From: Agarophyton chilense
Taxonomy: Eukaryota > Rhodophyta > Florideophyceae > Gracilariales > Gracilariaceae
Length of the DNA: 64,000 nucleotides
Assembly (NCBI GenBank): GCA_030374765.1
Contig: JARGXX010000111.1
Coordinates: 992,001 to 1,056,000, forward strand
Direction: 5' to 3'
Shown: in pieces, positions 4,467-59,075 of the stretch
Numbering within the stretch: position 1 is the stretch's first letter
Layout: each line of letters begins with the position of its first letter
The notes under the pieces: model-generated
What the model was told of the DNA's origin: nothing
The model's input: the letters and a program-made list of their open reading frames with translations, nothing else
Database searches by the model: none
Translations under genes and position numbers: made by a program

Positions 4467-5579
4467 CTAACCAATGATTTTACATGTCATATTTCGGTTT
4501 AGAAACCAAAGACCATTTTTGATGAACCGCTTGCGCTTCTTTTTTGAACGACACCAGTTGTTGTGCCATATAGATATGGTCTGAGATCTGCACATATTTT
4601 TTAGAGCCCCACTAGGAAGATCATGTATAGATTGGCCGTCATGAAAAGCCCCGCCATTTAAATACAATCGAAATGGTAGGGTAACAATATCTACAGAATT
4701 ATTCCATCTACAAATTCTTCTAAAATCACTAGGCGACCCATCATAGATTCTATGGCTTCCATGTGGACGTTTACATGCTTGAATAATAAAACTTTTCTGA
4801 TCATTGATGTTTTTGTTTTCTTTCCTCGTAGAGCTTTTTACAAGTGTGTCAAAAAAGCGTATCACTTCTTTGGTAGATCTGGCATAGTAAAACCCGGTGT
4901 TCAAATTTAACGACCCTCGTTCTCGTCGGGAGTCACTTTGGATCACAATCTGGCCATGACTAATAGCGTAACTTTCCAAATGTTTTAAAACGTCTCTACA
5001 CCATACAATGTCTACATCTGTAAAAATGACGTTATAGCCTGCTCTCAGAATCTCCAGAGAAACTTTAAGTTTGAGTTTTGATACAAAATTAAAAGACTCG
5101 CTTCCAAACGTGGAGGCATCAAGGTCTTGATAGATGTTATGTCTATAGAACGAAGATAAATATGGGATGTTGTATCGAATAAGATCTTTCATTCCCTTTT
5201 CATCAAGGGCAGCCACTACCAGTTCTGATCTAGTTGCAGACTTAATGCTGCATCTAAGGTTTTGAACAAAGCCTAAATAATTTCCTGTTGAGGCTGTGAG
5301 TACAACTGTGGACATGTTTGATAATTTTGACACTTGAGAATACTTTTGAAGCACTTTCATGTCTCTGTAGCTAATTCCCGAATGCTTAGAAAAACCATTA
5401 CCCTCTCTCATTCTTTTCATGAAGGTTTTAAAGTTACTCTCATTTCTGGTATTCGAAAGGCAAAAGAAGAAAAAAACTTTGTACGCACAAAGAAGCAGAA
5501 CAAATTCTAATACGAAAAAATATTTTTGAGGATTTATTCCATTCCTCACTAAAGAGAGAAAACTTCTTGGTTGAGCCAT
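4467..5579 (-). CDS. GT77-like nucleotide-diphospho-sugar transferase, type II membrane protein
   Basis: The product has 370 residues and starts at an ATG; it is single-exon. Residues 19-41 are a hydrophobic, Phe/Leu-rich signal anchor after a short basic N-terminus, as in Golgi glycosyltransferases. The catalytic GT-A domain starts near residue 90 (VVLTAS). The metal- and nucleotide-binding DVD is at 188-190 within FTDVDIVW, followed by LNTGFYYAR at 225-233, NDQ at 259-261, and the C-terminal HNNW (339-342) and GLW (356-358) that mark the family. Known relatives transfer xylose, galactose or arabinose to cell-wall polymers or glycoproteins; the acceptor cannot be read from sequence. All key motifs are present, so it is probably functional. 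It stands alone, with AT-rich spacers on both sides. Confidence in the fold is high and in the exact substrate none. Confidence 0.88.
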   Translation of the reverse strand: MAQPRSFLSLVRNGINPQKYFFVLEFVLLLCAYKVFFFFCLSNTRNESNFKTFMKRMREGNGFSKHSGISYRDMKVLQKYSQVSKLSNMSTVVLTASTGNYLGFVQNLRCSIKSATRSELVVAALDEKGMKDLIRYNIPYLSSFYRHNIYQDLDASTFGSESFNFVSKLKLKVSLEILRAGYNVIFTDVDIVWCRDVLKHLESYAISHGQIVIQSDSRRERGSLNLNTGFYYARSTKEVIRFFDTLVKSSTRKENKNINDQKSFIIQACKRPHGSHRIYDGSPSDFRRICRWNNSVDIVTLPFRLYLNGGAFHDGQSIHDLPSGALKNMCRSQTISIWHNNWCRSKKKRKRFIKNGLWFLNRNMTCKIIG

Positions 5580-13380: not shown

Positions 13381-14634
13381 ATGAGTCCAGTTCTGTTGCT
13401 TCGAATGCTTTATGTTTCCATGCCTTCGAAAGTATTTAGACGATTTTTGTTATGCTTGACGGCATTTGGGATATTTTTACTTGGACAAACTCTAGTAAGA
13501 GATCGTTCAAATGTTCATTCTAGAGTTTATATGCAACGTAAGACAGAAAAGTTTTTACAAAAACATTTTAATTTGAGTTCGCAAGTTCTATGTAAAGGTA
13601 ATATCAGAGGAGCTATTCACATTACTTATAAGGTGCAAAACCTTTTAAAGTCAGAGTATTTGTATCAAAATGACCATATTCAAATTAGGGAGTTGAGAAA
13701 ATACCAGAATATATATTCAGGATACAATGGAATGTGTCACGTGAAAGTCTTTAGCTCTGCAGCAAAATATAAATATTTTTGGAAGCCTTTCATACTTACG
13801 GCTCTGTTTGAGGTCTTCAAGACAGACCTTGTGTACCAGGACTTGGATGTTTTTGTTTATAAAAACTATCTTAAAAGCTATTCGCCTCGATCTCAACGTA
13901 TTTACCTTCAGTATGATCTTTCCACGCAAAGTATAAATGCTGGTGTAATCTGGCTCCCATACAATTCAGCAGTGCTACGTATTGTTAGAGAATGGAGCAC
14001 TAGACTGAAAAGAAAAAATATACTAGATGATCAAATGGTACTGAACAAATTGGTTGATAAATCCCCTCATTTTTCAGTATTAAAACACGGAGTTGGGGCT
14101 GATCACTATCTGGGCTCCACTAAAAGTAAAAGAGCTGGGCCGCTACTCTCAAGTCAGGTTTATACGTTTACCGTATTTTACAGGGGATTTTCTGTTATCT
14201 ATTGTTTATTTCTTTTATTTGTAATGCAAAATAAGAAGAGAAATCCCATATTCAGCCAAGGACATGAACTACTAGTCTTTGCTGTTCCATTTGTCTTCGT
14301 TTTTATTGAGTTCTTCTCATACATTCTTTTTTATAGTTTTGAAGGTCAAATAATTTGTGGACCACCAAATTACGTGCGCTTCTCTAGTATTATTCCTATA
14401 TCTGATGGCTGTAGAATGTGGAAGTATAGTGGGAAGCTAATGTTCTACGATGGGTTGTGTCTGAAACACACAATTATTAGTACTCTTGGCTGGAGTGACG
14501 AGAAAGTAACAGGGATTTTTTATTTTCTGAGAAGAAATTTTTTTATGCACACAGTTGTAGCTACTACAATCATTTTAAAAATACAAGAAAACTTTTCATT
14601 GGTCACCAAAAACCGATACTATGAATTGCGTTAA
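13381..14634 (+). CDS. Putative GT-A glycosyltransferase with membrane anchor (possible retained intron)
   Basis: I start at the ATG at 13381, giving 417 residues. Residues about 20-38 form a hydrophobic anchor after a basic stretch. The catalytic pattern is visible: KPFILTALFEVFKTDLVYQDLDVF with the DxD at 154-156, then NAGVIWLP (186-193), EW (204-205) and DDQMVLN (216-222). This is the usual order of a nucleotide-diphospho-sugar transferase. The region from about 257 to 322 is odd: it is very hydrophobic, with two membrane-like stretches, and interrupts the catalytic domain before a C-terminal CLKHTIISTLGWSDEK segment. A GT-AG pair at 14158-14310 would remove 153 bases and keep the frame, so an unspliced intron is possible; a degenerating gene is the alternative. 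Family is probably related to GT77 or GT34; acceptor unknown. Confidence 0.7.
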   Translation: MSPVLLLRMLYVSMPSKVFRRFLLCLTAFGIFLLGQTLVRDRSNVHSRVYMQRKTEKFLQKHFNLSSQVLCKGNIRGAIHITYKVQNLLKSEYLYQNDHIQIRELRKYQNIYSGYNGMCHVKVFSSAAKYKYFWKPFILTALFEVFKTDLVYQDLDVFVYKNYLKSYSPRSQRIYLQYDLSTQSINAGVIWLPYNSAVLRIVREWSTRLKRKNILDDQMVLNKLVDKSPHFSVLKHGVGADHYLGSTKSKRAGPLLSSQVYTFTVFYRGFSVIYCLFLLFVMQNKKRNPIFSQGHELLVFAVPFVFVFIEFFSYILFYSFEGQIICGPPNYVRFSSIIPISDGCRMWKYSGKLMFYDGLCLKHTIISTLGWSDEKVTGIFYFLRRNFFMHTVVATTIILKIQENFSLVTKNRYYELR

Positions 14635-18540: not shown

Positions 18541-18781
18541 TGGTGACGCTCAACCTTAGAAGGTAGACGTAGTAAACCTTGATGGTAACAGGGCACCGTG
18601 AAAACCCGCAGGGGCAAACAGAGGGGCAACTAGCCTATACCGTGTAGGTGAACGATGGTAGGCGTCGACGCGCGGGAAATTCTGTGTGGTAGTTGAGAAA
18701 CAATAAACCAAAAGGTATAGTCGTGGGGCCAGCAATGCACGGTCTCTGACCTAGTGCCCCAAGGGTCGGCGACATCCGGGC

Positions 18782-20044
18782 CTCAAACCCTTGAAGCCCA
18801 CCAACCCTCTGTACAGGACACTCCTGTCCTACCGGTATTACCGGCTAGAAGATTCATCTTTAGGTCGGACACCGCGTGACACGGGTAAAGTGAAAGACTG
18901 CATCAAGCGGATGCAGCTTTCACTTCGTAACCAGTCATTTACTGGGGATGATCCAATTCTGGTCTTGGATTTCCTACACCGCTTTGTAGCGGAAGCCGAT
19001 ATACTCGGAATGAACGAAGGACAAGCCTACGTGGCGCTACCCTACTTTCTACGGGGTGTCGCTGAAGATCAGTTTTTGTCGGTTCGGGGCTCGTCGCGAG
19101 CCTCCGAAGGAGGTGTGACCTGCTGGCCCGAGGCCGTGCAGTACCTCCTGCGTTCCTACGCAACCAACACCGCGATACAAGCGGCGATACTCGCTTTGCG
19201 AGACACTCGACAACGCTCCGGCGAGCTCGAGACCGACTACTCGGTACGCCTGAATAAGGCTTTCCACCGTTGTGGTAATGTATACCCCGCTGGGGAACGC
19301 TGTACGATGTTCCTTGATGGCTTGGATCCAGCCATCAAGACTCTTGTCGCCCGTTACAGGGAACAAGAGCCGAAGGTGACCTACCTTGAACTCGTACAGT
19401 TTGCCCGCGCAGAGGGAGATGCACTACGTGCACGCAATCCGGAAACCCGGTCGAAGGCCGCTAAAGCATTGCTGCTTGAGTCAGACTCTTCTTCACCGTC
19501 ATTTGCGATGGATGGCATCCCCAAACAGGGTTATGACAATATGAATGTCATCCATCACGATGGTTTATCTATTCCGACAACGGAATTACCGTCTACGACG
19601 GATGGCTCGGTTGACTCAACCGCAAGGGACACGGAGAACGGGCAGGTCTTTTATCTTAATGACCGCCGCACTCCGGCCCCCCGTATGCCGTACTCGAACG
19701 GAATGACACGAAGTCAGCGCCCTGGATGGGTTGGAAACCGGGAACCCGGAAGATACACCGATGCTCGGAATGCCGTACCGCGAAACGCGGGAGTGACGTT
19801 GGTGTGCCACTTGTGCTACGAGCGCGGGCACACCTCCCCGCAATGCCTTTTATCGCTACGCGATATGACGCGAGTGGTGGATAATTACGAAGCCCTCTCC
19901 CGGCAGGAGAAGGGCTCCGTGCCACTCACGTCATATCTCCGCGGGAAGACGGACTTCCCCAACGCATTGGCTCACACTCCGAATTCTCGGTATAAACCGG
20001 CTCAGCCGGCACGCGCCACACCAGCGCCAAACCACGCTGGTTGA
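18782..20044 (+). pseudogene. Gyp-1 gag (capsid plus CCHC zinc knuckle), 5' truncated
   Basis: The frame is open from after a stop at 18752 to a TGA at 20042. It begins without an ATG, at a point that matches the middle of the Gyp-3 gag (LKPL), so about the first 250-300 residues are missing. The capsid-like part includes the EADILGMNEGQAYVALPYF and FLDGLDPAIKTLVARYREQ segments shared with Gyp-3 and Gyp-5. A zinc knuckle CHLCYERGHTSPQC (CX2CX4HX4C) lies at about 19806-19847 and would bind the element's RNA. Compared with Gyp-2 the TGA at 20042 is premature (GGA there); the natural stop is a TAG near 20147. Pol lies in the -1 frame across the overlap, implying programmed frameshifting. Confidence 0.88.
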
Positions 20045-23000
20045 TCTCAACCCGCTCCTGCGGTAGCTACCGTGCAATGGAGTCATGCACTCGTTGCCGA
20101 GGAAGTCGGGCCTTCGCCCGACCAGGACCCTGTACAGGGAAAAGAATAGAGGGAGTCTCCCCTTCGGGAGAGGCGTCCTCAGAGTTGAGGCTGACGACGC
20201 CCGAGGCGCCGATGCCTCGCTCCCCGGTGAAAATCCTGACAAGGAAGGACACCGCAGACGCGGACTCTAAACACCTCGGTTTGTTGCGTCGACGGTGGAT
20301 ACGGATTAGAAATAACGGGATCCCGGATAGAGTCTTGGTAATGGTCAAGCGTAACTACAAGGTTTACGCTGACCTTGGTCTGCACACGCAGTTTATGGTG
20401 AGACATCTCACTGTCCTGGATACAGGTTCTGGGCCGAAATTTATTGTGGAATCGGTTTTACCCCCGCCATTGCGGTCACTCATCCGTTCTGAAACGGTAC
20501 CCGACGTGTCGGACGCCAATAACAACCCGTTGAAAACGGCTGGTGTGATCGACCTGGTCGTCAGGCTAGGGCGGATGGTGGTTAAACTAACTTTTATTGT
20601 GTGCCGCTCGCTGGCCGCGCCAGTTATACTGGGATGTGACTACTGCGACAGGTTTGTCGACGCCATCCGCCCACGCCTTAAGCAGGTGGAACTTGAGGAC
20701 GGATCGACCGTCCCCATTGTTCGTCAACCGCTGAAGCGGGCATCGAGAAAACACGTTCCTCTACCTGCTGCGCAGAAACCCACACCGGCGAACAGGGATT
20801 CTACGAAGCTACGCGTTGCCTAGTCAGTAACCATACCCCCGGAGAGCCAGGTTATGGTTTCAGTCAATTCCCGTCAACACGGTCTTCGGGTTGTTCAGCC
20901 CTTGCCCTCGTTGTACGAGAAATTTCAGTTAACCGTTGCGAACGGAATCGTGCAAGTCACGCCGAATTCCCCTTTCAGGGTGTTGGTTGCCAACCTGGGG
21001 AAGGCACCCCAGACGCTGGCAAAGAACCAAGTCATTGGGTCTGGGACGCCGCACCCGCTCGCGATGCTCCCTACAAAGGTGACGGCTGCCGGAGTACTCG
21101 GGATAACCCCTTCCACCGAAGATGGTCTCCCGGTATCCGGTGCAGAAACCTCCGGGAAGGCACAGCAGTTGGCGCTCGATAAAACCGTCAAGACGGATGC
21201 ATTTCCGACCTCGTCGGTTCCCACACCTGACACTAGGGCACAGCCTACGAGCTACGATAAGATAGACCCGATCAAGGCCCTCGAGGACCTGGACCTGAGT
21301 CATGTACCGGTCTCACACCGGGACCGCTTACGCGGAATGCTACACGAGTTTACCGCAATGTGGGACGGCTCACTGGGTGAGATCAATACAACCGAACATC
21401 GGATAGACTTGCTACCGGACGCACGTCCGGTTGCACAACCCCCTTACAGGGCGGGACCGAAAGCTCGGGAGGAGGAAGAATTTCAGGTGGACAAGATGCT
21501 CCGTGCTGGAGTCACCGAGCCCGCCCAATCTCCTTGGGCTTCACCGGTGGTGCTGGCCTTCAAGGCTGACGGCACTTGGCGGTTTTGCGTTGACTACCGC
21601 CCCCTCAATGCCGTCACCGTGAGGGACACCTACCCGATTCCGCGCATGGACGAGTGTATAGACTCGCTCGGGGACGCTACCGTGTCTACGGCTCTGGATG
21701 CTAACTGGGGCTACTGGCAAGTCCCAGTCCGGGAAGAGGACCGAGACAAAACCGCGTTTGTTTGCCACTCGGGTTCCTACCGCTTCAAGCGGATGCCGTT
21801 TGGTTTAACCAATGCACCGGCCACCTTTCAAAGGGCAATAGACATACTGATGTCGCGTTTCCAGTGGCGCACGTGCCTTGTCTACTTGGACGACATCATT
21901 GTCTTTTCCAGAAACCTGGACGATCACCTGACCCACGTGCGGGACGTGATGACCGTACTGCGAGACGCAGGAATAACCCTCAAGTTGAGGAAGTGCGAGT
22001 TCTTCACCGACACGGTGAAGTATCTCGGGCACGTCATCCGTCCAGGACGGTTAATGATCGAACAAGTTCGTATCAAGTCCCTCTGCGAGGCGAAGGAGCC
22101 CCGTACTCAAACGGAGCTCCGCTCCTTTTTAGGTCTGGTCAACGTCTATCGACGGTTTATACCGAGTTTCTAGGATATCGCCGCTCCGCTAAGCGCGCTA
22201 CTGCGGAAGGGCCAGCCACCGAAGCTGGCGCCATTCACCACCGATCAGTCGGAATCTTTTCCCTCCTTGATTAAGGCAGTTACGACAGCTCCCATCCTAT
22301 CCTTGCCCAAACTTGGGCTTCCCTACTCCATCGACACCGACGCCAGCAACCACCAGGTGGGCTGCGCACTGTTCCAAACCACCCCCGAGGGGGAACGCAA
22401 ACCAATTGGCTATTGGTCCCGCACGCTGAACGTCCACGAGCGCAACTACTCGGTCTCCGAGAAGGAGTGCCTCGCAGTGGTCTGGGCGCTATCCACTCTG
22501 CGCCCATACGTCATGGGCGTTCATTTCACCGTATACACGGACCATGCCTCGTTGAGGTGGCTGCTGAACATCGCAGATCCTTCTGGCCGCTTAATGCGGT
22601 GGCGCCTCCGCTTAGCGGAATTCGACTTCGAAGTCGTCTACAAAAAGGGTGTCCAGAACACCCAAGCAGACGCCCTCTCTCGATTACCTACGACAGGTGA
22701 AGCACTTGCCGACCCGGAGGTCGACGAGATCCCGTGCTTTACCTTGGAAGGGGAAACACCGACGGAGTCGGATTGGCCCGAAACCGGGAAAAACACCATG
22801 GAAATGGATGAGCTACTCGCAGCGCGCGAGAATGAAACACCCGTACCCGTGGCATCATGGCTTAGAAGCCCCGCCGTGGTACCGCACCCCTCACGGGGTC
22901 TCTCCAATATACCGACTTTATCGGAACCACCGGCAATGCCGGAAACACCTGGCCCTCGCGGCCAGCTACCTTTACGGGCGCCGCGCAGCGGTATTTATAC

Positions 23001-23100
23001 CCGCCATGCGGTTAGCCCACTATCACCCGTCGCACCGTCTAAGGAGGGGGGGGGGGACCCGCTCAATCGCGGAAGCATCGCCGTCGCAACGGAAGTTTAA
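20041..23100 (+). pseudogene. Gyp-1 pol: aspartic protease, reverse transcriptase, RNase H
   Basis: One frame runs through all three domains, broken by TAG at 20821 and TAG at 22171. The protease has DTG at 20419-20427 in TVLDTGSGPKF and the later VILGCD turn. The reverse transcriptase has SPWASPVV, the first aspartate in STALDANWGYWQ, FGLTNAPATFQR, and the catalytic YLDD at 21882-21893. RNase H has DTDAS near 22330, EKECLAVVWAL, YTDHASLRWL and the final QADALSRL near 22670-22690, so all its acidic residues are present. After this the frame continues about 135 residues without any integrase motif to a stop at 23098; an 11-G run at 23046-23056 shifts the true frame by +1 compared with Gyp-2. 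Without the stops the catalytic cores would be complete. Confidence 0.9.
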
Positions 23101-24145
23101 CCGGATACCCCGGGCAAGGCCGCCGAGCGGGCAACCGGCATCGTCGCCGGACGTTACTCCGCTCCCGCGGGACGCGGCGGTCAATCCGACCGCCACGCAA
23201 CCCCGCAAGGGGAACCGAGGCGCTCGAAGACCCGAAGCCGGGAAGCGAGACCCTACGGACGCCCCGCATCGCGTGGAAGCAACTAAGGGCTCCCCGCACA
23301 TTCGCGGTCGCACACCGAGCGTTTCGGTCGATACCAGTACTCCGGCGGGCGCTGCGCAAGCAGGTCTAGCGAGCCACTCCGTTGAGAACGGTACGAACCC
23401 CATGGGGGAAAAGGGGCGCGACGACAAGTCGAAAACCGCCTCCCTTGCCGAACAATCGGAGCCAACCGTCCGCGACGGCCCGACCACCCGTCCTCAAGGT
23501 CACGTGACCCGGGCGGGAGATCGGACAAATGGGCACCCGGCATCCCGGTCATTGGCTGACAGCCACCCCGCGGATGCGGATCGCCGGGACGGTGAACCAC
23601 TCACCGCCCACGGCGCACCGCACAGCGGAAACTGCCCACCAATGGGAACGCCGCATGCCGCAAATCAAGCGAAGGCCTCCGGCGAACCGGCACCAAGACG
23701 GAAGGACCCCCGCAAACTCGCGGTAAGGGCGGACTTCAGGGAAGCCCCTACCGCCCAGCGGAAACACAACCCGGCCGCGCCGGCAACTTCCGCGAAGCGG
23801 TACGGCAGCCCCGGCAACCCGGCAACAACTGCAGAGCGGAATGACAAACCGAGTGACCCGGAACAGGCGACGACGAGCCCAGCACCACGCGGCGCTGAGG
23901 CTCGGGCCACCACCACCCGGCAAGGCCGGCAAGTTTACGTGCAGTAGTACGTCCTCGACCGAATCGTCGGACATAGCTACGATGAGCACGGGGTGCTCCA
24001 GTACCGGGCCCGCTGGTACGGATACGGGCCGGAGTGGGACACCCCGGAGCCCATGGAGCACCTCCCGCGCTCCGCGGTAATGCGATACCACCGCCTTGCG
24101 GGGACCGCACTACCAGCCACGCTGGTAGACGCCCAAGAGGGATAA
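23041..24145 (+). pseudogene. Gyp-1 pol C-terminal arm: Arg/Pro-rich linker and chromodomain
   Basis: Downstream of the G-run the coding frame moves by one. About 300 residues follow that are very rich in Arg, Pro, Ala, Gly and Thr and look disordered. There is then a TAG at 23945 (GAG in Gyp-2) and a chromodomain at about 23948-24100 with YVLDRIVGHS, RWYGYGPEWDT and HLPRS, ending at TAA 24143-24145. Chromodomains at the pol end of gypsy elements steer integration to modified histones. The chromodomain normally follows integrase, which is absent here. The Arg-rich arm is about 95% identical in Gyp-2 by eye. Confidence 0.85.
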
Positions 24146-24460: not shown

Positions 24461-26236
24461 TCATTCCTCCGCACGAGGTGGACCCTCTCCCAGGCGGTTG
24501 GCTAAGGCATCCCGCATGGCGGCCTCATCACCCGAGATCTCGGAAGGGCGAAGCCCCACCTCCCGAAGGAAGCGCGCGATGACCTCGCCCCACTCCGCGC
24601 CAGCGACGGTTGTGGGCGGGCCCGCCACCGATGGAGTCGGATAGGAATCCGTTCGCACGGCATCAGCAGCCCCGGATGGAGCCGCACCACCGTATTCAAC
24701 GGACTCCTCACCGGCCTCGCCGGACCCGTCATCCTCCATCGCAGCGTAACCCGGATCTTCCGGTTCGTTGTCGACCATCGGGTCACCATCCGCATAGTCG
24801 CGGTAATAGTAGCTCGAGTCGACATACACTCGCGGGTGGTCGGCCGGGACTTCACGCGGCGCATGCCGGTTGGCTTCCGCTTCCTCGCGGCTGATCTCGT
24901 GGTACTCCCAGGGGTCGAAGTAGATGAAATCCCCCGCTAGCGCGGTATTCCTCCCGAGTCCGGGGCCAGACCCGCGACGCGGTTGAATGCGTTGGGAGTT
25001 CTCCAGCGGGACCTCATCCCACTGGACCCCCTCCACAAAGTCGAGGAGGCCCAGCATCTCTTCTTCGTTCGCCTCGCCCCCGAGGGGGATGCGCATGTCC
25101 AAACGACGGATCGCAGCCCGCACACGCCGTGGCACGTACCACAATCGGTATTGGTCGTTCGCCTCAGCGAGGATAAAAGCCGCAGTGCGGACGGCCCATT
25201 CGCTTACCACGACGGACCACCACCCCGACTGGGGATCGTTCGAGAACGACGACCCTACATAGGTAAATACTGGGGGCAGCTCAACGAAGCAACCCCAGCA
25301 CGCCTCCAAGGAGGACCACCAGTCTGGGAGACTGACGTACCGACCACGTCGGTGAGCAGGCGCGATGCGCTCAATCTCCGTGTTCTGGTACGGTACGAAA
25401 TACCCGGTCCGGGCCCGCCAACGCCGCTCATCGCGGATGAAGTTCTGAAGGAAGTTCGAGCGCGACTGCCGCGGTTGATAGCGGAACTCTGCCCGAAGAA
25501 TCGGTCGTACCCAGAAAAGGGCTTCTTGCCGAGCGATCGGTGTGCCCCTCCAAGCGAGGGTTTCCAATCCGTTAAGACGGTCACAGTACGACATTTCCCC
25601 GCGAGTGCGGTAAAGGTGGACGTCGAATTCGACCTCTGGCGGAATCGGGAACTCGAAAGGCGCCCGATGGTGCCTGAGATAAGCGATCCGCAGAAGCGCG
25701 GCTTGAGCCTCCGCAGAGGATTCACCGCGTCGGCGGAGTATGTTGTGTACCGGGATGGCGATACGATTACGCCAATCCCAGGACAGGGTCACCACGCCGG
25801 GCAGGTCGCCCGGGAGCATCTCCGAGTTATCGGTGTAGGATTGAATCAAATCCTCGTCGCGGACAGCCAATGGGTGAAACCAAGGCGCATACCGCAACCT
25901 CGCGGAGCCATGCCGAGTTCTCGGATTCGCACCCACAAGGGCGTCGTAGGTCGTCCACTGCGGTGGGTCCGCCTGTCCACGAAAGCGGGCGCCAATACGG
26001 CGGTCTTCGTACGCGAGGTTGGTAACATCCCCAGGGTGGGGCGCGGACTGGAAGCTGGTGGAACCGCCGAGGGCGGGAGTCACGGATGTGTTATGACGGT
26101 CGGGGTTGGACATGGTGCGTGTTGGGGTGCTGTGGTTGGAATCGGATGCGAAGAGCTGGCGCGGGATCCTTGGTGAAGGTGTGTTGGTTTCCGGAGACCC
26201 GGTGTCGGACGCGCTCTTATCATGACGAGCTTCCAT
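24461..26236 (-). CDS. Antisense accessory protein of Gyp-1 (aORF, 591 aa)
   Basis: An ATG-initiated, uninterrupted 591-codon frame lies on the strand opposite to pol, tail to tail with it (about 315 bp between the ends). Its ATG is only about 50 bp from the 3' LTR edge, so an antisense promoter in the LTR is the obvious way to express it. I recognise no family. The N-terminal about 90 residues are Ser/Thr/Pro-rich. A Trp- and Tyr-rich globular core covers about 95-420, with blocks such as LRYAPWFHPLAVRDED, SWDWRNRIAIPVH, GLETLAWRG, YFVPYQNTEIERI and WWSVVVSEWAVRTA. The C-terminal about 150 residues are acidic. There is no signal peptide, membrane segment or zinc finger. The same protein occurs intact in Gyp-2 and as relics in Gyp-3 and Gyp-4, which argues for a real gene. 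A capsid-like or accessory role is possible, but function is unknown. Confidence 0.8.
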   Translation of the reverse strand: MEARHDKSASDTGSPETNTPSPRIPRQLFASDSNHSTPTRTMSNPDRHNTSVTPALGGSTSFQSAPHPGDVTNLAYEDRRIGARFRGQADPPQWTTYDALVGANPRTRHGSARLRYAPWFHPLAVRDEDLIQSYTDNSEMLPGDLPGVVTLSWDWRNRIAIPVHNILRRRGESSAEAQAALLRIAYLRHHRAPFEFPIPPEVEFDVHLYRTRGEMSYCDRLNGLETLAWRGTPIARQEALFWVRPILRAEFRYQPRQSRSNFLQNFIRDERRWRARTGYFVPYQNTEIERIAPAHRRGRYVSLPDWWSSLEACWGCFVELPPVFTYVGSSFSNDPQSGWWSVVVSEWAVRTAAFILAEANDQYRLWYVPRRVRAAIRRLDMRIPLGGEANEEEMLGLLDFVEGVQWDEVPLENSQRIQPRRGSGPGLGRNTALAGDFIYFDPWEYHEISREEAEANRHAPREVPADHPRVYVDSSYYYRDYADGDPMVDNEPEDPGYAAMEDDGSGEAGEESVEYGGAAPSGAADAVRTDSYPTPSVAGPPTTVAGAEWGEVIARFLREVGLRPSEISGDEAAMRDALANRLGEGPPRAEE

Positions 26237-26271: not shown

Positions 26272-26284
26272 AGGGGGGAGGATA
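26272..26284 (+). promoter_or_regulatory. Gyp-1 polypurine tract
   Basis: AAGGGGGGAGGA directly precedes the LTR, which starts near 26285 with TGAAGAGC. It is the expected primer for plus-strand DNA synthesis. The same arrangement (G-rich tract, then ATATGAAG) occurs at the Gyp-2 and Gyp-4 LTR edges. Confidence 0.75.
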
Positions 26285-27146
26285 TGAAGAGCAACGTCTT
26301 CCAGGGAGGTTTTTGGGGACTTAAGTTTTTTCCGGAGCCTCCGGCGTGCAACCTCGTTATGAGTAGGAGTAATCCGTTTTCACGGCGATGGCCGGAACGC
26401 TGGTGATGCACCGGCGGGACCGGGTGCCATACACGTGGCCGCAGCACCCGCGCGACACGTGGCCGCCAGATTGGCCCCTTTGTTAGACGGACATTTAGCT
26501 ATTTAGGATAGACTTTATTTATTGTATTCTACGGTGACTACAGTACTTAGGCCGCCGGCCTCGCGGCCGCCGGTCCAGTAAAGTCTCCCCAACAAGGGTG
26601 ATCTTGGTCTTCGAGATCTTGGCTCTGGGTCGAACCGCCTGCGCGGATATACAACTCCTTACGGAGGGATTTCCCGTGGTGCACGGCTTCCCAACCCCCT
26701 TGGACGTTCAAGCAGCCTTCGTGTGTTGGGTATCTATTCCCACTTCGTGGTTCCGCCCGTGTATACGGTTTGCTACACCCGGCAGTGCCGGCTATTCCCG
26801 AGTCCCCTCTTGCGACTCGTGGTCAACCTCGCCCTCTTGCCTCCGTTCCCATTTTCCTTCCCTTTTCCTCCCCCTCTTTGGGCAATTCCCGCTCTTGCGG
26901 CTCGCACTGACACCTGTCGTGCTAGCCACTCTCGTGGGTTTTGCCTCCTCAGAGGATACGCAAGCACCGCTTCGGCGGATATTCTCGGCTTCTTTCAGCC
27001 TCCCTGCGCCCGTCGCGACGGTTCGGCTCCGTCTTACACCCGGCATTGCGCACCGATCCCTGGGAGGGCTCTACCGCGCCGGTTACCTCGTGAGAGGAAG
27101 ATCCGGACGTCTTCGTAGGTTTTCCCCCTTGGGGGCATGTCCTACA
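26285..27146 (+). repeat. Gyp-1 3' LTR (862 bp)
   Basis: The boundaries were set by comparison with the Gyp-2 LTR on the other strand (58165-59028). The two agree nearly throughout and diverge immediately after TGTCCTACA at 27146. It begins TGAAGAG and ends CCTACA, consistent with TG..CA ends. An AT-rich block near 26500-26545 (TTTATTTATTG) is the likely core promoter or polyadenylation zone. ORFs on both strands inside it are not conserved as proteins. Confidence 0.85.
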
Positions 27147-28125: not shown

Positions 28126-30250
28126 TGGATGCAGGAACCACACCCAACCAACCACACCATAAGACCTTTACGGCAGGACAAGTTGCGATTACAACCCCGA
28201 CGATGTCGCCTGACCCGCAGGTTGATACTGCTAGCAAACGCAGAAGCACGAGAAGCTAGCAGCAAGAAGTAATGACTCCCCTGGACCACCCTGAAAGGAC
28301 TCCCCGAGAACCCACGGTGGCAGTGCATTTATGAAAACGCCTAACCAGGGCCACCTCTAGGCAAGGTACACCACAAGGAGAACCCAGTAAGACCGAAAGA
28401 ATTAGAGAGAACATCCCCGCAGGCCTTGCTGATCTTCTCTGGCCCCGTTTCCGTGAGCTGTGCTCAGCCCATGTAGATTCCATTGTGAACATGTGACTCG
28501 CTACAGCGATCGCTGATCATACGGATTACGTCATTACGCGAATAGTATGTAAGGTAATAGAGTCCAATTTATTCATAGACTTCCTTCTACAGGCCGTGCA
28601 AGGAGCACTCATCATCAAGTCAGGCAATGCGGTATCTAGGACCACTTCACAAGTCAACCATCCGGTTTCCATATGAGGACCCCCTACCGAACCCCCAGGC
28701 GTGGCGGTATTAAGCACCCCTCGTCGGGAACAGCATTAGGAAAATCGAATGGAATGACAATCTTGGAGCAGAAGAGAGGCTACGCGTCTAGAAGAGAAAC
28801 AAATTGCTCGACCCAAACGACAATATGAGGTACAGCGACCTCAGGGTTCCATCGGATCTGAGAGAGAGATCGATCCGTTAGGACCCCATCCTGCTGGAAA
28901 GAAACCAAGTAACCGCAGGAGAAAGAAGAACAGAAAGAGCAAAAGAAGAGACCGTTCGGACACGAGTGATTCCGATTGGGACTCAACCAAAACGACCGAC
29001 TCGGAAGTGGATGAGGCTGCCATTCGAGGCCTCAAACCACTGACAACAACCAACGAACTTTTCTCTAAGCTTCTAGACTACCGGAATTACCGTTTGGCCG
29101 ACAGGTCTCCGAAACATTCTGGTTCGGTGGCTCGAAGAGTCGCCAAATGGGCCAAACCGATGCAACAAACAATTACTGACAAGTTCTCGGGTTTCGATCC
29201 CATTGCTGTCCTTAGGTTTCTGATTTTGTTCCTTACGGCCTGTGATCAAAACGATGTCCTCGAGGGCGCCGCTCTGTACCTTTTCCAATTCTTCCTTACA
29301 GGACAGGCACATGACCGAGTGGTTTCGAAGATATCTGGCAGAATGAGATCGTGGATGCTCAAGACTGTGAGCTCCTCAGGTCATACCCTCAGGTTGTTCA
29401 TTACCTCCTGGGAACCTAAGCCACGGATGACGTTATAATGGATGCCAACCAGGAAGTTATATCATCTAGGCAGAGCTCTAACATGACCGAGACGGCTTTC
29501 GCAGACGACATAAGGAATAAGGCTTGCCGATGTGGAAACGTATTCTCCGAAGAATAGCTCAAAAATCATTTTATCACTGGATTACTACCTGCAATTCGAA
29601 CACATGTCCTTAATTACCACACGGACACCCCGCAATACTTCTTCCGACGGCTCGTCACCTATGCCAAAGGTAATGGCAAAACCTACAGGACTTCCAGGCG
29701 CAATGATGATACATCCAGAGGACACGCAACTCCATTGTGTAAACCAAACCAAGCCCATTTGGTCAGCTCCACGGAATCGGACATGGATTCATCACTTTAT
29801 TATGCCGACTCGGGAGATATCCTCGCGGTTAATTTCAGCCCCCTTCCATCTAGGCCCCCATCATATACCTCCCGGGGAACTGAAGCGACCACTGGACCAC
29901 CCACATCCAAGTATTCCCCCTTTTCATCCCGCAAGCACGTTTCTTTGTTCGCTCAGCAAGGGTTTGCTTTCCTTGCCTTTCCATGGTCTAACCCTGTGAG
30001 TACACGATATTTCTGCCTGAAGACGCATGCGAAGATCTCCTAGACTTAAGGGAAGAGAATTACAAGGTGCGGAGATCCGAAGGAATGTTTAACAGGGCAC
30101 AGCAACGAGCCATAGGAAAACCTGGAAGCTTCCGCTATGCCACCTCTCCGGACCCTTCTATGAAAGCCCCACAAGTCCTCACAGCTTTAAACCCACCGGA
30201 AGACCGCGAAGAAGAACCCCATCCTTAGGAAGAAACGGAAACCCCATCGG
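28126..30250 (+). pseudogene. Gyp-3 gag relic
   Basis: An ATG at 28126 opens a Thr/Pro-rich N-terminal segment (MDAGTTPNQPHHKTF). A 143-codon piece at 29007-29438 contains LKPLTTTNELFSKLLDYRNYRL and FDPIAVLRFLILFL. These match LKPL..TN.LYRTLLSYRYYRL and DDPILVLDFLHRF in Gyp-1. A later frame near 29560-29690 (FITGLLPAIRTHVLNY) matches FLDGLDPAIKTLVARY. Stops and frame changes separate the pieces. No zinc knuckle was found. Confidence 0.75.
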
Positions 30251-30439
30251 GAAATGCTTAGAGGGTCGACGCCAGACAAATCTTCCCTCCTTAATTCCAT
30301 GCCTCAACCATTTGGACGGACAGGATTCAAGGAGATCCTCACCTTCAAATACAAACCACAGCCGTTGGACAACTCAGAATGGACCAGAATTGGAAGACAG
30401 TGACGACCCCGTCTGTTTCCTCAGGAAGGAGAATTATAA

Positions 30440-30840
30440 GTTCGGGTAACCATGAAACTACGTTCCAACAGCTCCCAAGTGGCCACAGCAGTATTTGACA
30501 CAGGCGCTGGTCCGAATTTGGTCGATTCTAAGTTGCTCCCACTGGGCTGGCAAGATTTCGTTCAGGCAAGAAAAACCCCCAGGATTACCGATGCATAACG
30601 TAGACCAATGGATACTAAAAGGATAGTACCACTTTATATGCAAATAGGACCATTTAAAGTCCGCACGTGGTTCCTTGTATGTCTTCACTTGGTCTCTGAC
30701 GGAATCCGAGGGACGTCCTTCATCGATCGATACATTAAAGTCATTTATCCAGGCCTTCGGAAAGTTGCGTTCTATCGTGCGCATTCCATCTACATAATTG
30801 GTTCCGCCCCAGGACCAGAAGCTATCCTCTAACCAGAAAT
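30440..30840 (+). pseudogene. Gyp-3 aspartic protease relic
   Basis: The frame from 30443 contains AVFDTGAGPNLVDSKLLP, the retropepsin active site, then stops at about 30600. It resumes as VPLYMQIGPFKVRTWFLV and GTSFIDRYIKVIYP, which fit the flap and C-terminal turn of a gypsy protease. The catalytic aspartate is kept but the frame is broken. Confidence 0.75.
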
Positions 30841-31199
30841 TATCTCCGAAGATACTAAGTCCAAGAAGGTTCGCTTATCGAAAGCCATAACGATACCCCC
30901 GATGACCTACATCACCATATCGGCCCATTCCCTGTCTTCAGATCTCGTGGCGATACATGACCACCCGAAAACGGTTCTAAAGCACCTCACTTTAATGGTC
31001 AATGGAGTAATGGACATCCGCCCCAACCGGTCCTTCATGGGCACTGTAAACAACTTCCGAGATAGCCCCGTATGGTTATCTAAAATTACAGTGATTGGCC
31101 TCACTGTACCTGCCCCTGCGGCCATGACGGAGGCCCGATTGGATAAATTTTTAATTTTTAACTAAAACTCCCGACGAGGACGTCGACTCTTGGGAGGGG

Positions 31200-31790
31200 A
31201 CAGTCGCTATCGGCGCAGAACTCAAATCCTATAGGCCCCAAGTAATTCATCTCCTCCGGGACTACCAGACCATGTGGTCAGGTTGATTGGGCAAACTCAG
31301 AGCCACTAAATACCGCATTGACCTTCAGAATGATGCTAGACCACAGTTCCAGCAACCATACCGTACAGGCCTGAAGGGTAGGGAAATTGTCGCCGACCAT
31401 ATGGAAAAAATGCGCAAACCTCACGTCACAGAGCCGGCGCCGCCTGACCAATCCGAATGGGCAAGTCCCCTTGTTCTCTCGGCTAAGAAGAATGGCTCCG
31501 TCAGGTTTTATGTCGACTATAGGAAGCTGAACGCAGTAACCAAGAGGGACTCATACCCGATACCCCGTATGAATGACTGTCTAGATTCCTTAGTTGAAGC
31601 TGTCGTATTTACCACACTGGATGCTAACTCCAGATAATGGCAAATCCCTTTGACCGAAAATGCGAGAGCGCTGACAACCTTCACCATCCATGAACGTCTG
31701 TTCAGATTTATTCGTATGCCCAGTGGTTTAAAGAATGCGCCGGCAACCTTCCAACGGGTAATGGACATCATACTGGTCAGAGTCCTATGG
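31200..31790 (+). pseudogene. Gyp-3 reverse transcriptase, truncated before the YxDD motif
   Basis: Frame 31287-31637 starts in the pre-RT linker (TKYRIDLQNDARP..QQPYRTG). It continues through EWASPLVLSAKKNGSVRFYVDYRKLNAV and the first catalytic aspartate in TTLDANSR, then a TAA. After that stop it goes on through RMPSGLKNAPATFQRVMDIIL. The sequence then breaks off exactly where the YLDD catalytic motif should follow, at the start of the palindrome. Thumb and RNase H are absent. It is closest to the Gyp-1 reverse transcriptase in the window. Confidence 0.85.
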
Positions 31791-31847
31791 AATCGGTCGT
31801 AGTCGAATAAGTATCCAGGCTGGATGCTTATTCGACTACGACCGATT
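31791..31847. repeat. 27-bp inverted duplication (fold-back) at a deletion junction
   Basis: The left arm 31791-31817 and right arm 31821-31847 are reverse complements with one mismatch and only three bases (GGC) between them. The left arm starts AATCGGTCGTAGTCGAATAA. The right arm belongs in frame to the integrase N-terminus that follows, so the left arm is the extra copy. The junction replaces the end of reverse transcriptase and all of RNase H. Confidence 0.95.
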
Positions 31848-33043
31848 TGGACTATTGTTTCGCAGCTCTCCATTGGATGGGGCACTCCAACGGACAGTAC
31901 CAAGGTCACTGAGGGCGCGATTCCTATACCTCGCCCATTTCCCTCGCTTGGCCGGTCACCCTGGACGCCGACGTATGTACCAGACCCTAAGGAAGTTCTT
32001 CTAGTTGCCACTAATGGCACAAGACCAATGGCAAACCGCATGGAACTGCACTTCTGGCGCACAAATCCGAGGGTCTCGCGCCAGTCATCAGGCCAAATTG
32101 AAACTTTTCCCCGTCCCAGGCCCGATGGAATTCGTCGCCATGGATATACTTGGACCTTTGCCCAGGTCGTCTCATGGGAAACGGTTGGTCTTGGTAATAA
32201 ACGATAGGTTTACCAAATTTATCGAGCCCTGTCTCTAGGAAAGACAACGGCCACGGATGTCGCCACGATCTTCTTGTCCCACTGATTATATCCGTATGGT
32301 ATGCCACTGTACCTCCTTAAGGATAATAGCAGCCAGTTTGTACCCAAATTATTATCACACGTTTGCGGTACCTTATCTATCAAACATGTAACAACAACAG
32401 CATACCACCCGCAAACCAATGGCCAAGCCGATCGCTACAACCATACCCTTCTGGACCGAATGGCACACTACGTATCGGAGCACCAGTTGGACTGTGGCGG
32501 CTACGTTGAGCCACTGGTTTATGCCCACAACACGCAAGTGCACGCGTCCACGGGGACAACACCTTTTTAACGCTGACGAGATCGCCACCACCGATAGCTG
32601 TTGATCTTCAGAAGTTTACAATACCCCAGGACATAATCGAAGGAATGACTCCTACCCAGGGAAAGCGCTACTTTCGCCGACACATCGACCGCATTATACA
32701 ATCGGCTAGAGCTATACTAACGAAATCTTTACGGCGATACAAGGTCAATTTCGACAAAACCGTCTGGAACACACCTACCTTTGGGAATGGTGAATTGGTT
32801 TACTTGAACCGGTCACCGATGGACAGTGATGAACTCGAGGAAACTACGCAGAAGCTCTTATCCCGCTCTACGGGACTATACAAAGTCTTTAAGGCCAATC
32901 AACACAACACTACGTTCCTAATTGACGACGTACAGGACACCGTATCTATTGATCGGGTGACACGAGCCCCCAGCTCTCCCGGATCACTAAAGTCCCAGCC
33001 CCTTGGCCCAACGAAATCACTAGAACCTGAGGTCGACGCCTAA
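31825..33043 (+). pseudogene. Gyp-3 integrase relic with GPY/F-like tail
   Basis: The N-terminal zinc-binding segment reads FLYLAHFPRLAGHPG followed by RRRMYQTLRKFF near 31910-31990. The core starts EFVAMDILGPLPRSSHGKR (first catalytic Asp near 32140). It continues after frame changes with LKDNSSQF near 32315 (second Asp) and YHPQTNGQADRYNHTLLDR near 32400-32460, where the usual catalytic Glu is Asp. The tail at 32645-33043 has KLLSRSTGLYKVFKANQHNTTF and NTVSIDRVT-like TVSIDRVTRAP, as in the DNA-binding C-terminal module. Stops at several points show the gene is dead. This is the integrase that Gyp-1 and Gyp-2 lack. Confidence 0.85.
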
Positions 33044-33199
33044 GTCCACACACTCCCTAAGGCCGTTTCCGCGGACCCGAATAGCCCCATGGACTCGATG
33101 GTAAATGTCAATGACGATGACCCACCTCTTTCAACCGACTCCGATGGATTCGACCCTCTGCACCGCACTGTCCTTCCGAAGAACGAACACCAACCATAA

Positions 33200-33341
33200 T
33201 ACATGCTTGAGTGCGTCATCTCCGCCAGTCGGGGAGAAGATGGAAATATGCGCTATCGCGTCTGTTGGTTCGGCTACACCCCTGAGGAAGACACTTGGCA
33301 AGGTTCTCAAACCGTTCCGGCTAATTTTGTCGCCCCCTAAT
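33200..33341 (+). pseudogene. Gyp-3 chromodomain
   Basis: A frame of about 46 codons reads YMLECVIS, then MRYRVCWFGYTPEEDTWQGS and VPANFVAP before TAA. This is a chromodomain with the aromatic W-x-G-Y and acidic D-T-W positions, corresponding to RWYGYGPEWDT in Gyp-1. It terminates pol. The antisense relic starts a few hundred bases downstream. Confidence 0.8.
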
Positions 33342-33599
33342 GGCGTCAAATCTGCAGCACGGAGCAGCCTTCAGGAGGGGGCAAACATTAGCCCATATAA
33401 TACTAAAACGCCTCCCAAAACGCCTCTCGACACGACAGTTTGCCGTAGCGCCCCTATCAGGGAACAAAGTCAGTCCTAAGGTGACACCTGAGAGAGACCT
33501 GAGACGCTCTCAAGGTTCGGAGGCCGTACCAGGACACGCACGTTTGAGGAATACAGGAGAAACTTTGGAAAAGCACAAGCCTTACTTTATTTGACTGAC

Positions 33600-36542: not shown

Positions 36543-36544
36543 AC

Positions 36545-37130
36545 TTTGCCAAGGAAATTTTATTGGTCATCCATGGCTGTCGCTTGCTACGCAACAGTGC
36601 GTTTTTGCACCAAAGGTACTAGAAATTGAGTGAAACTATGCGGACAATCAGCGAAGTTAAAACGTTTCCCTGCAAAAGATCCTTTCGAGATTGTCAAAAC
36701 CGAAATTCCCTGCCCACTACTCACCACCAGACGTGGAAACAAATCGACACTCGATATAACGAATCGTTTGTCAAAGATGGTTCGGACAATATTTTTAAAA
36801 AAGATATCCGATTTCACGATTGCAGCAGCTTTTGTATCCCAGTGGGTATTCATCTACAGCCCACTGGTTCGTTTTCTGTCGAATAAAGCGAAAAAAGTGG
36901 CTTCGCGATTCTTCGAAAACGTCTGCCAAATACTCGATTTAACGATTTTCTTCACATTGACCTACCATTCCCAATGTTATAGAACAGCCGAGCGGTTAAA
37001 CCGAAACCTACTGGCATCCCTCCGTTCTTACGTTACCGATTTGCCCAAACGTCGGGATCTGTGTACTGACGCGTTAACGTTTTCGTAGAATACGTAAGTA
37101 CACCGTAAAACGTGTTTGACTACATTCGAA
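36545..37130 (+). pseudogene. Gyp-4 integrase relic
   Basis: After a short N-terminal trace (HPWLSLATQQ near 36570) the frame 36630-37088 reads as an integrase core: PLLTTRRGNKS, DITNRLSKM, FVSQWVFIYSPLVRFLS, RFFENVCQILD, TYHSQCYRTAERLNRNLLASLRSYV, and ALTFS. The first and second catalytic aspartates of the family are replaced (TEIPCPL, LSNKA), while the Glu in AERLN is kept. The following kilobase (37.13-38.4 kb) holds frame-shifted remains of the pol C-terminus that I cannot resolve into domains. Confidence 0.75.
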
Positions 37131-38849
37131 TTTGTCTTGGGCCGCCATCCACCCCCCCACCACGTTGAATCCCCCAACTACGCTGGAGGAATATTTTTCC
37201 GTCAAGGATTACTGCCACAAGTGGAAGGAATGGCTGACTAAGTTGATTCCAGCTACTTGTGGTTCAATGACAGGTGTTAAAGCCGCCTAAAAGCGTAATG
37301 TTTGAAGCTTTCATACGCGGTACAGCGCCACCGAATAAATCAGGTGACTACGTCTTCATCCGGTAGGAGTATTCGAATCCCGGAAAAGAGAAGCGCCAAA
37401 AACTATTTCTTGTCGCGAAAGGACCCTATCAAGTTCTCTCATTCACATGAAATGCCATCGTGGTTGAAACTGATGACGTTCAAGAGCGTATCTCCCGTGA
37501 CCGCGTTGTTGCAACCCCACCACTTCCGTCAGAAGTGCGCTCTGGTGGTACAAACCCCACTTCAGTGAAAATTGTCCCGCGTTAAATCTCAATAACTGGA
37601 CCGACTTCCGTGGTCACTAGACCTTCTGTCTTACCACATACTACTCGTGGGCTCTCCGATTTGGCGCTCTTGTCGGAAACTACCCAGAAGGATCCCTTCC
37701 TCTTTCCCCCGAGTGGTGTCTACCGTCGGTAGTTGGAAGTTCTTACCGCTCCCCCCCGCCGCCCTATATGATGAAGGGAAGGAGGATATTAATGTGGACG
37801 CCGATGACATCGCCGATGACAAGCCGGTCACGGACAACTCACACGCCAAAACCGGAATACACTCGTCGCCATTTGAAATGGAAAACTAAAAACGAGTACG
37901 CTGCAGCGCCAATGACCCCCATGAAAATAAAATCCACTCACATTTCCGACACTTGGGCGAAAGCAACACCGAGATTTCGGAAGGAAACCTCGGAAATGGT
38001 ACTGTAACGCCGAAGAATTCTAATTAAGCGACAAGGCTGCCACGTAAGCCCTCACCTGAGAAAGATTAAGCCACGACGTGAAGCTCTCTCAACAATCAAT
38101 CGGAACGCGCACGCGACAGAACCGCTCCACTTCCGGAGATAGACCAATCAGCCCCCAAGGCGGTGAACCCTCCAGTGCCTGTCCCAAACTGAAATTACTG
38201 CCCTAATCGTCAACTTCCTCACCAACTGAACGGAGAGAAGCCCGTAAACTTGTAAAGTTCAACCCAGAAACCTATTTAGAAAAGACATCTGCGTCACAAA
38301 AACGTCCAAACAGGAAATAATACGAGCAGTAATTTGTTCTAAACCATATTTTGGAACACTCATACCATTCGGATGTATTCTTACAATACCTTGTCCCTTG
38401 ATACGGCTGTGCTCCCTAGACCAACTCAGGTGAACTGATTGAGCATCTTCCAGGTTCAAAAGTGGTGGTTGTCATATCACCGTCAAACGCGGATAGGTAC
38501 CCCTGCGACCACCACTAACGCCAAGGTGGGATAGTTGAGCCACTGAGGTGGAAGAGTAGGAAGAGAAAAATGAAGAAATAATATAGAAGTATCTTTTAAT
38601 GGTTGTAATAAAAAGCAAGAAGACTGCTCAAGCAACTCGACATTTACTCAAGTATATCGGTATCGTACCGAGAAGTCGGAAACTACTGTAAATCGCAAAG
38701 ATACATGCAACTTTAGAGATTATGAACCTCTTATGGATTGGGTTGGCTGCTACACGAGTGGTTGCCACGAAGGCGGGAAATCAAAGCCGTGCACATCTGG
38801 GCAACGTCACCACTTGTAGCGCTATTCTCCAACCCTACCTTGATATCGA

Positions 38850-40360
38850 ACTAGGAGATCACGCTCGCCTGACCCGCGGAGGCGGAACTTGTACCGTTTA
38901 GAACGATTGCACCCCTTCCCGAGGCATCCACTGGGGAAGAAAGAAGTTCACTACCACCTATTCCGGCAGTAGCAGACCTCACAAGGTTACCCACGTCCCT
39001 GTATGGCCTTAAATGGTTTCCTGTGTTTAATTGCTCATCCATAACTTGGGAATCAATCGCTTCAGCGAACGCCACCCCATTTTTGGTTCAGCGTCGAACA
39101 TTGGGTTCACACTGTCTTAGACGTTAAATTATTTCTACGCGTGCAAAGACCCGGTCGGGTATCCCTCGCGGATACAACGTTGAGCAAAGCAAAGTTCGTT
39201 AGCTTCCTCCGAGGAGATTTTATGTCCCTCCCAAGGGTGAAGTATATAAAGACACCCACCAGCGCAGTTCTACGCCCTACTGACAGGTTCCGCGCCCGAC
39301 TACTGGTGCAAGGTCCACTATACAAAAAGAGAGAGTGACGCCTAATCAACATGGCCCATAAAAACGAGATGTGTCGCCACCTCTTCGGCGCTGGTTTTTA
39401 TCACCCAGCGAGATGCGCAATTACAAGGCATGAATGCGGGTGCGAGCGCGTAGTGGTATAAACCACAGTCGGTAATGGTCTTAAACCTCAATGGAAATAA
39501 AAAACCGCCGTGCCGATAGCCGACTAAGTGACGACAACAGGCTGACAGTCAGTTTAAGAATTTTTGAGGAGATATAACTCGTAATAAGTGATAACCAGAG
39601 GTAACCTAATGTATCAACCTTGAAAATCTTCGAGAGACGAAGACCAAGATGAAATGGGAACATACCGAACGTGTCGGTTGGCCGGGAGAATGCGTTAGAT
39701 CTCCCCTTTTTGGTACGGAACCATGTTCCTGGATCAGGATCGCTCTCTCCGTTCTAAGTGGTTCATTTGCAAGAAGTCCGCCCGCCCCAGCTACAGCTAT
39801 CGCATAAAGCGGAACGCAATCCAAATGATCGCCAGGTCCCAGAAAAAGGCCCCCTGGAATGCAAGGGGAAGGCCTCTTCAGCGGAATGTTTCCAAACCCA
39901 CTAGGCGATTAAGATAACCAATTTCCACTTGGGTGCGGTACAGCTAGACATCAGAGCCCAGCCTATCTAGTATGTGATATTAGAACGGAGCCTGGCTAAG
40001 CCATTGATGACCAAGAAGTACAAAAGCAGCATGAGTGGAAACTAACGATTCGTTCCCGCAGAGACTTATTGCATGAACAGGAACTGTTACGGGGTTCCGC
40101 TAATCCCATGAAGCGGAGGCAAGGAACGCAACTTCTCCCAGGAGCATTCGCTTTCCATCGCTGTACATCGCCGAGTAGGTGTCGTTGAACACCGCAGTCG
40201 AGTGTAACCACGGCGCCAGCCGGAGGATATGAGCGTCCAAAGTAAGTTCAGGATCACCGAGCCGGTCATACGAGGGCCACACAACAGGTGGATATTCCGG
40301 CATAGAAGCCAATCCCGCGTTTGCAACTGGCGCAGCCGTAGCTGCCGTTGTCACGCCGTT
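38850..40360 (-). pseudogene. Gyp-4 antisense ORF relic (homologue of the Gyp-1 aORF)
   Basis: The minus-strand frame from 40354 reads YPPVVWPSYDRLG, LRLAPWLHSTAVFNDTYS and LASASWD, matching DPPQWTTYDALVG, LRYAPWFHPLAVRDEDLI and VTLSWDW of Gyp-1. Past a stop it continues RNPVTVPVHAI (RNRIAIPVHNI). Near 39920-39860 LYRTQVEIGYLNRLVGLETF matches LYRTRGEMSYCDRLNGLETL. Near 39700-39600 VPYQKGEI.RILPANRHVRY and SSWSSSLEDF match VPYQNTEIERIAPAHRRGRY and DWWSSLEACW. At least five stops or shifts break it. The C-terminal part is placed only by position. The alignment is long and collinear, so homology is beyond reasonable doubt. Confidence 0.85.
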
Positions 40361-59028: not shown

Positions 59029-59075
59029 TATCCCCCCCCTTAAGACAGGGCGAACACCTCGAAGAGGAAGTCGGC

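Follow-up and report, generated by a model that had tools for sequence, protein, structure and literature searches.

An antisense third gene between pol and the 3' LTR of red-algal Ty3/gypsy retrotransposons

Antisense third genes of LTR retrotransposons have been known in plants since the 1990s, and their function is unsettled (PMC7264820). Among these genes, those of Grande (gene23), RIRE2 and Retand are described as lying between pol and the 3' LTR (PMC7264820, PMC11963269). A survey of Retand, a lineage of non-chromovirus elements in flowering plants, found TRP28 (PF04195) encoded by 97% of the clusters (all of the 63 except two), although ten of the 63 are without gag or pol domains (PMC11963269), so that retention in non-autonomous elements is already known there. 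Nuclear localisation and a promoter of its own have been proposed for Grande gene23, DNA binding has been predicted for TRP28, and the plant antisense genes have been likened to HTLV (PMC7264820, PMC11963269). The antisense gene of HTLV has its promoter inside the 3' LTR, and the likeness to the present elements is one of logic only (PMC7264820). In PvRetro13 of Phaseolus, the antisense ORF2 has the same position and orientation as the gene described below; it has an SMC domain (PMC7264820), whereas the red-algal protein has neither an SMC nor any other Pfam domain. Outside flowering plants, the gypsy element Boty of Botrytis cinerea carries an antisense additional gene, brtn (PMC7264820, PMC8365987). 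Boty is fungal, in contrast to the red-algal element, and brtn is likened here by its description, not by sequence. Searches of the open-access literature (subscription papers and Repbase being outside this scope) turned up no red-algal LTR element described as carrying an antisense gene. The antisense architecture is already known from flowering plants and one fungus; what appears to be new here is the protein and the red-algal host.

The window, i.e. the whole stretch of DNA analysed, is 64,000 nucleotides long, and the genome searched comprises 79.8 Mb in 135 contigs. The host was taken to be a red alga, and not a land plant, since contig C39, which holds 14 of 15 phycobilisome matches, has some of them doubled about 185.7 kb apart, like a plastid genome read more than once. 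The G+C content of the window (47.8%) would fit gracilarioids; that of the Gracilariopsis lemaneiformis genome is 48.13% (PMC5970526). The window also contains two genes that look like host genes and match the nucleotide-diphospho-sugar transferase domain PF03407, one at 4467-5579 (minus strand) and one at 13381-14634 (plus strand), the second with a match barely over the cut-off.

Two family A elements, Gyp-1 and Gyp-2, carry the antisense gene in the window. In each it has 591 codons from ATG to stop (Gyp-1, 24461-26236, minus strand; Gyp-2, 59076-60851, plus strand), and the two proteins are 95% identical. Pol ends near 24142 in Gyp-1 and near 61185 in Gyp-2, about 0.3 kb from the antisense gene and tail to tail with it. 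On the other side, the ATG is 43 bp from the 3' LTR of Gyp-1 (26280-27146, plus strand; 96.5% identical to the LTR of the complete copy L038), which is the presumed site of an antisense promoter, and 40-47 bp from the 3' LTR of Gyp-2 as placed by BLAST (58165-59035, minus strand). The first-pass annotation, which had described an ATG-initiated frame of this length opposite to pol, tail to tail with it and about 50 bp from the LTR, was therefore accurate for both elements, the distance being about 45 bp. Like the Retand gene, the red-algal antisense gene lies between pol and the 3' LTR, occurs in most copies and extends across families. The red-algal elements nevertheless do not appear to be a member of Retand, because the protein is not TRP28 by Pfam (none of seven members matched PF04195 at E <= 5, in a search run without a positive control), because pol ends in a chromodomain-like stretch and because the host is a red alga and not a flowering plant.

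Both elements are incomplete. Missing from Gyp-1 are its 5' LTR, the beginning of gag and the integrase. It retains the C-terminal part of gag (18756-19582, plus strand), a weak zinc-knuckle-like ORF between gag and pol (19685-20146, plus strand; zf-CCHC_2 at E 0.15 only) and a pol (20212-24142, plus strand) with a protease region, reverse transcriptase (RT), RNase H, a low-complexity stretch and a chromodomain-like end, interrupted by a frame break near 23050. Gyp-2 runs past the edge of the window, its 5' LTR lying beyond the end, and its pol remnant (61185-63668, minus strand) is without RT and RNase H and has little of the integrase left, the protease part being fused in frame to the low-complexity stretch and the chromodomain-like end. 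This protease part (62850-63791) is 59.6% identical to L038 and the C-terminal part of pol about 83%; the Gyp-2 pol is perhaps a mosaic.

Complete copies found elsewhere in the genome run from an LTR of about 866 bp through gag (515 aa), the zinc-knuckle-like ORF, pol and the antisense gene to the second LTR. L038, which has no integrase, is about 10.1 kb long, and C16, which has one, 11.4 kb. In eight sets of copies the LTR pairs are 97.1-99.2% identical. The LTR termini are TG..CA, except in C98, which has TT for TG at one LTR start, and 5-bp target duplications match by eye in seven of the eight sets, the exception being a palindromic copy on C117. A candidate tRNA primer binding site and a G-rich tract were found, also by eye, at the expected positions. 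Pol matches RVT_1 and RT_RNaseH in Pfam, and its nearest solved relative is the Ty3 RT/RNase H. The integrase follows RNase H in C16 (family A) and precedes the chromodomain-like end in family C. The protease region has no Pfam match and was assigned by position and by a D-T-G motif. The Chromo match scores 24.2 bits in family C and 19.4-21.1 bits in family A, all below the Pfam cut-off of 25.1, and is parted from the integrase by a long low-complexity stretch. In their sequence features the elements with the antisense gene are Ty3/gypsy LTR retrotransposons, the class first assigned to them, with a chromodomain-like pol end; the LTRs, the target duplications, the order RT, RNase H, integrase and an RT nearest to Ty3 all point the same way.

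Several copies are arranged in arrays. L048-L050 (C68:3137001-3167000) form a head-to-tail array with common LTRs, the three copies being 9,197 bp apart, and L035-L037 (C77:293001-316000) form another, with two copies 9,249 bp apart. On small contigs the integrase matches are evenly spaced (C5, five matches, one every 9,734 bp; C49, four matches, one every 6,523 bp). L046 and L047 (C117:1231001-1243360) make up the palindrome, whose two 5.9-kb element arms are 99.6% identical and about 0.5 kb apart and which has no matching target duplication.

In family A, the antisense gene is free of stops in 46 of the 74 best copies, taken from 1879 candidates of a protein search and 92-100% identical, and a 200-aa piece of it is found at 90-100% identity in at least 150 places of the genome. 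The codon-aligned frame on the other strand has three stops in Gyp-1 and three in Gyp-2. When a relic piece from the window (40103-40288) was used as a genome query, it found itself and at least 149 other places at 40-60% identity. The five fetched loci among these represent two further families, B (L051, L052 and L054) and C (L053 and L055), with antisense proteins 46-49% identical to that of family A; the core and a C-terminal segment are conserved. Because 46 of the 74 best copies are open and three families conserve about 590 codons, the frame is not a chance one, in agreement with the first-pass annotation, and by these measures it is a real gene.

The relic itself is a broken antisense gene of a further family (38734-40360, minus strand), identified by profile search and by the relic query. 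It stands after an integrase remnant (36543-37489, plus strand; 54-58% identical to family C) and a chromodomain remnant directly before its tail (38309-38467, plus strand), the same order as in the elements. Two such relics, in two further families, had been reported for the window. Only this one was recovered: when the window was scanned with a profile and matches were accepted up to E 1, the only other match (62268-62450, E 0.3) was at chance level. The window also holds a second broken gypsy element (28758-33479), in which gag, RT and integrase are present and the chromodomain is matched weakly, but in which no antisense gene was detectable.

That the gene is a trait of the lineage was borne out by its presence in three families and beside most of the family A RT and integrase copies listed. 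Among the matches listed, the gene accompanies 113 of 131 A-type RT copies, with the side and the strand as expected; the 131 are the 150 listed minus 19 under 93% identity, and none of these 19 has an A-type antisense gene. The corresponding figure for A-type integrase is 85 of 95 among the matches listed, the distances being mostly fixed for RT and integrase alike, and, conversely, 113 of the 150 antisense-gene places listed have an A-type RT. In family C, 53 of 70 antisense genes have a C-type integrase nearby, usually at a distance of 3.2 or 3.9 kb depending on the strand. For the B-like genes (the 150 relic-query matches minus those judged by hand to be family C, i.e. 100), an integrase was paired in four, from lists that were not made for family B. 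A related integrase/RT group (C71:1466547, C68:2779100 and seven other places), with 75-78% identity in the integrase and 89-91% in the RT piece, has no A-type antisense gene beside any of its nine RT copies.

The start of the protein is uncertain. The first-pass annotation had it begin at the ATG of the 591-codon frame, and codon 1 is indeed ATG in all 27 family A copies used, copies that were selected partly by matching there. However, the ATG that the three families have in common corresponds to codon 42 of family A: the first ATG of the frames fetched from families B and C falls at this codon or a few residues away from it in the alignment, and the codon is itself ATG in 25 of the 27 copies. 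L051 (family B) has no ATG near this codon. The antisense protein may thus be one of 550 aa starting at codon 42, in which case the distance to the LTR would be about 165 bp and not about 45 bp.

Selection on the frame can be seen both between and within families. Between families, synonymous sites are saturated (pS 0.68-0.74) and pN is 0.34-0.38 over the whole antisense gene; in the pairs A-C and B-C, pN is 0.28 in the core and 0.54-0.59 at the N-terminus. Within family A, the pooled dN/dS in the antisense frame is 0.49 (27 of the 30 fetched copies, three with another matched length having been dropped), in contrast to 0.61-1.25 in the five other frames of the same stretch. The changes were also compared with a placement null, in which each change is moved to a different site that agrees with it in base and CpG context; four native copies served as the map, and 23 of the 30 copies were used, four near-identical array copies also being dropped. 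Against this null, 164-165 synonymous changes were observed where 128-130 were expected (P < 0.0005, w 0.69-0.71), and stops were weakly fewer (9-10 observed, 15-16 expected, P 0.04-0.11). The dN/dS of 1 that had been named beforehand as the value speaking against a gene was thus not found, either in the pooled ratio of 27 copies or in a w of about 0.70 against the null. By region, only the core is significant alone (w 0.67, P 0.001), and there is little sign of constraint on codons 42-90 (w 0.86, P 0.33). The changes shared by nine integrase-less copies show no synonymous excess (8 of 25 synonymous, w 1.07).

In the same six copies, dN/dS is 0.49 for gag and 0.50 for the antisense gene; for RT-RNase H it is 0.41 in five copies, three of which are among these six. 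Judged in this way, the constraint on the antisense gene is about the same as on gag. Between families, the antisense proteins share only the 46-49% identity given above versus 73-75% for the integrase, and a 160-aa piece of RT is 86-88% identical (family C copies being assigned by position). At the sequence level, the antisense protein is diverging fast relative to RT and integrase.

A considerable part of family A has no integrase, and the antisense gene is kept there. Of the 74 best copies, 20 have an RT but no listed integrase, at a distance shortened by about 1284 bp. The deletion junction and a short filler are common to eight loci at five places (identical anchor), the exact anchor being absent from L035 and L036. 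An amplified subfamily of family A has the integrase deleted in frame (window 20212-24142; L038:3120-7052). From the pattern of the junctions, the integrase-less copies are a deletion lineage, and the lack of integrase is not in the nature of the family. Counted from the RT side, so that copies were not chosen for the antisense gene, the gene is present in 37 of 45 RT copies without a listed integrase and in 76 of 86 with one (Fisher P 0.42), a count that is blind to pol-deleted, gene-less copies in which the RT is gone. Among the 37, 27 are at the shortened distance, two at the full distance, where the integrase may merely be unlisted, and eight at other distances. Because 27 of the 37 are at the shortened distance, and in view of the shared junction, this retention comes largely from one deletion lineage and does not represent many independent events. 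Gag and the antisense gene are both kept in Gyp-2, in which the antisense gene is open despite the loss of RT, and in C98, in which RNase H, the end of RT and the integrase were not found. Elements that borrow pol functions thus do not seem to shed the antisense gene readily, and its retention in integrase-less copies fits a product that would act on its own copy.

Some other interpretations of the missing integrase were tried and given up. The L038 pol, without integrase and yet with 5-bp duplications kept, raised the idea that the antisense protein is a replacement integrase; this was ruled out by the integrase of family C and of C16 and by the 95 A-type places listed. Removal of the integrase stretch as an intron is not supported either, since there are filler letters at the junction. 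Finally, a first cross-check with Pfam rve and H2C2 placed none of the 74 family A genes beside an integrase, and for only two of the 150 relic-query matches did it find one where side and strand were as expected. This check misled because it used the best 150 matches per Pfam family and 113 of the 150 H2C2 matches, those left out being mostly on small contigs.

The antisense protein had been said to resemble nothing known, and the searches agree. None of seven members matches any Pfam family at E <= 5 (without a positive control), nor NCBIfam or PHROGs at E <= 0.1; one member was compared with PADLOC and gave no match; among PDB sequences nothing was better than E 0.3; and IMG/VR and GTDB genomes hold no relative. 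Comparison with the proteins of the element itself gave no similarity to family A gag (hhalign probability 0.1%) and a meaningless match to pol (1.4%). A neutral core holds 16 of the 17 tryptophans and an invariant CxxC (C313, C316), and residues 471-545 form an acidic stretch with a pI of 4.1. The highest 19-residue mean hydropathy is 1.17, so that a membrane span is not likely and the protein is probably soluble. Plant ENV-like ORFs are in sense orientation and have a transmembrane span; the present gene is antisense, with the hydropathy maximum just given. A single-sequence structure model was unusable (mean pLDDT 34).

We propose as the likeliest reading, with about even confidence for and against, that the antisense product is an accessory regulator of the element, expressed from an antisense promoter in the 3' LTR. 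Similar proposals have been published for gene23 of Grande and for the TRP28 proteins of Retand. The promoter would fire from within the 3' LTR into the element and give rise to a separate antisense mRNA. This would encode a soluble protein in which a poorly conserved N-terminus is followed by a Trp-rich core (about 380 residues), the acidic stretch and a conserved C-terminal segment. The protein would regulate the element at the level of its transcription, its chromatin state or the fate of its RNA, and would preferentially serve the copy or family from which it comes. Against this reading, no TATAWA hexamer is present on either strand of the one LTR examined, and no domain supporting DNA binding was found in the seven members by Pfam.

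The protein could instead be a structural or particle factor that works with gag in the cytoplasm, in assembly, RNA packaging or nuclear entry, and happens to be expressed from the other strand. The equal constraint on the two genes in the same six copies and their joint presence in the pol-deleted Gyp-2 and C98 are consistent with this. As a rule, however, one and the same genomic RNA serves for all structural proteins, whereas an antisense transcript would give independent expression, and, with no similarity to family A gag in addition, we regard such a role as unlikely. We are similarly sceptical of a counter-defence factor against host silencing, perhaps a captured host gene. Anti-silencing proteins are known in some plant DNA transposons, and both the fast divergence relative to RT and integrase and the presence of the gene in most copies without a listed integrase would suit such a factor; but neither Pfam nor the PDB offered a domain or a solved relative, and counter-defence is in any case a special case of the regulator reading.

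It is very improbable that the antisense RNA itself is the functional product, a brake on the element, and that the frame is open only incidentally. The two transcripts, sense and antisense, would overlap across the whole gene, and other elements are known to have antisense RNAs that code for no protein (PMC7264820); such a role is contradicted by the conservation of amino acids in three families at saturated synonymous sites and by the excess of synonymous changes over the placement null. That the frame arose by chance or from composition alone, for which one might cite the long stop-free frame on the opposite strand of L038 (1072-2307, 411 codons from stop to stop, the longest there over the antisense gene), can be practically dismissed in view of the open copies, the conservation between families with its pS and pN, the higher dN/dS of the five other frames and the synonymous excess.

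Beyond the regulator reading, it is conceivable, if somewhat doubtful, that a protein family unrelated to known ones was recruited independently in this red-algal lineage as an LTR-driven antisense third gene that acts preferentially on its own copy and is kept after the loss of integrase or even RT, which would then be borrowed from other copies. If the red-algal protein is indeed unrelated, what recurs would be the architecture and not one protein. The many related copies with and without integrase make it possible to test whether the protein is needed in cis and whether it governs the LTR. If the independent recruitment is true, antisense 3' genes would be a convergent solution in retroelements of plants, fungi and red algae and in HTLV-like viruses.
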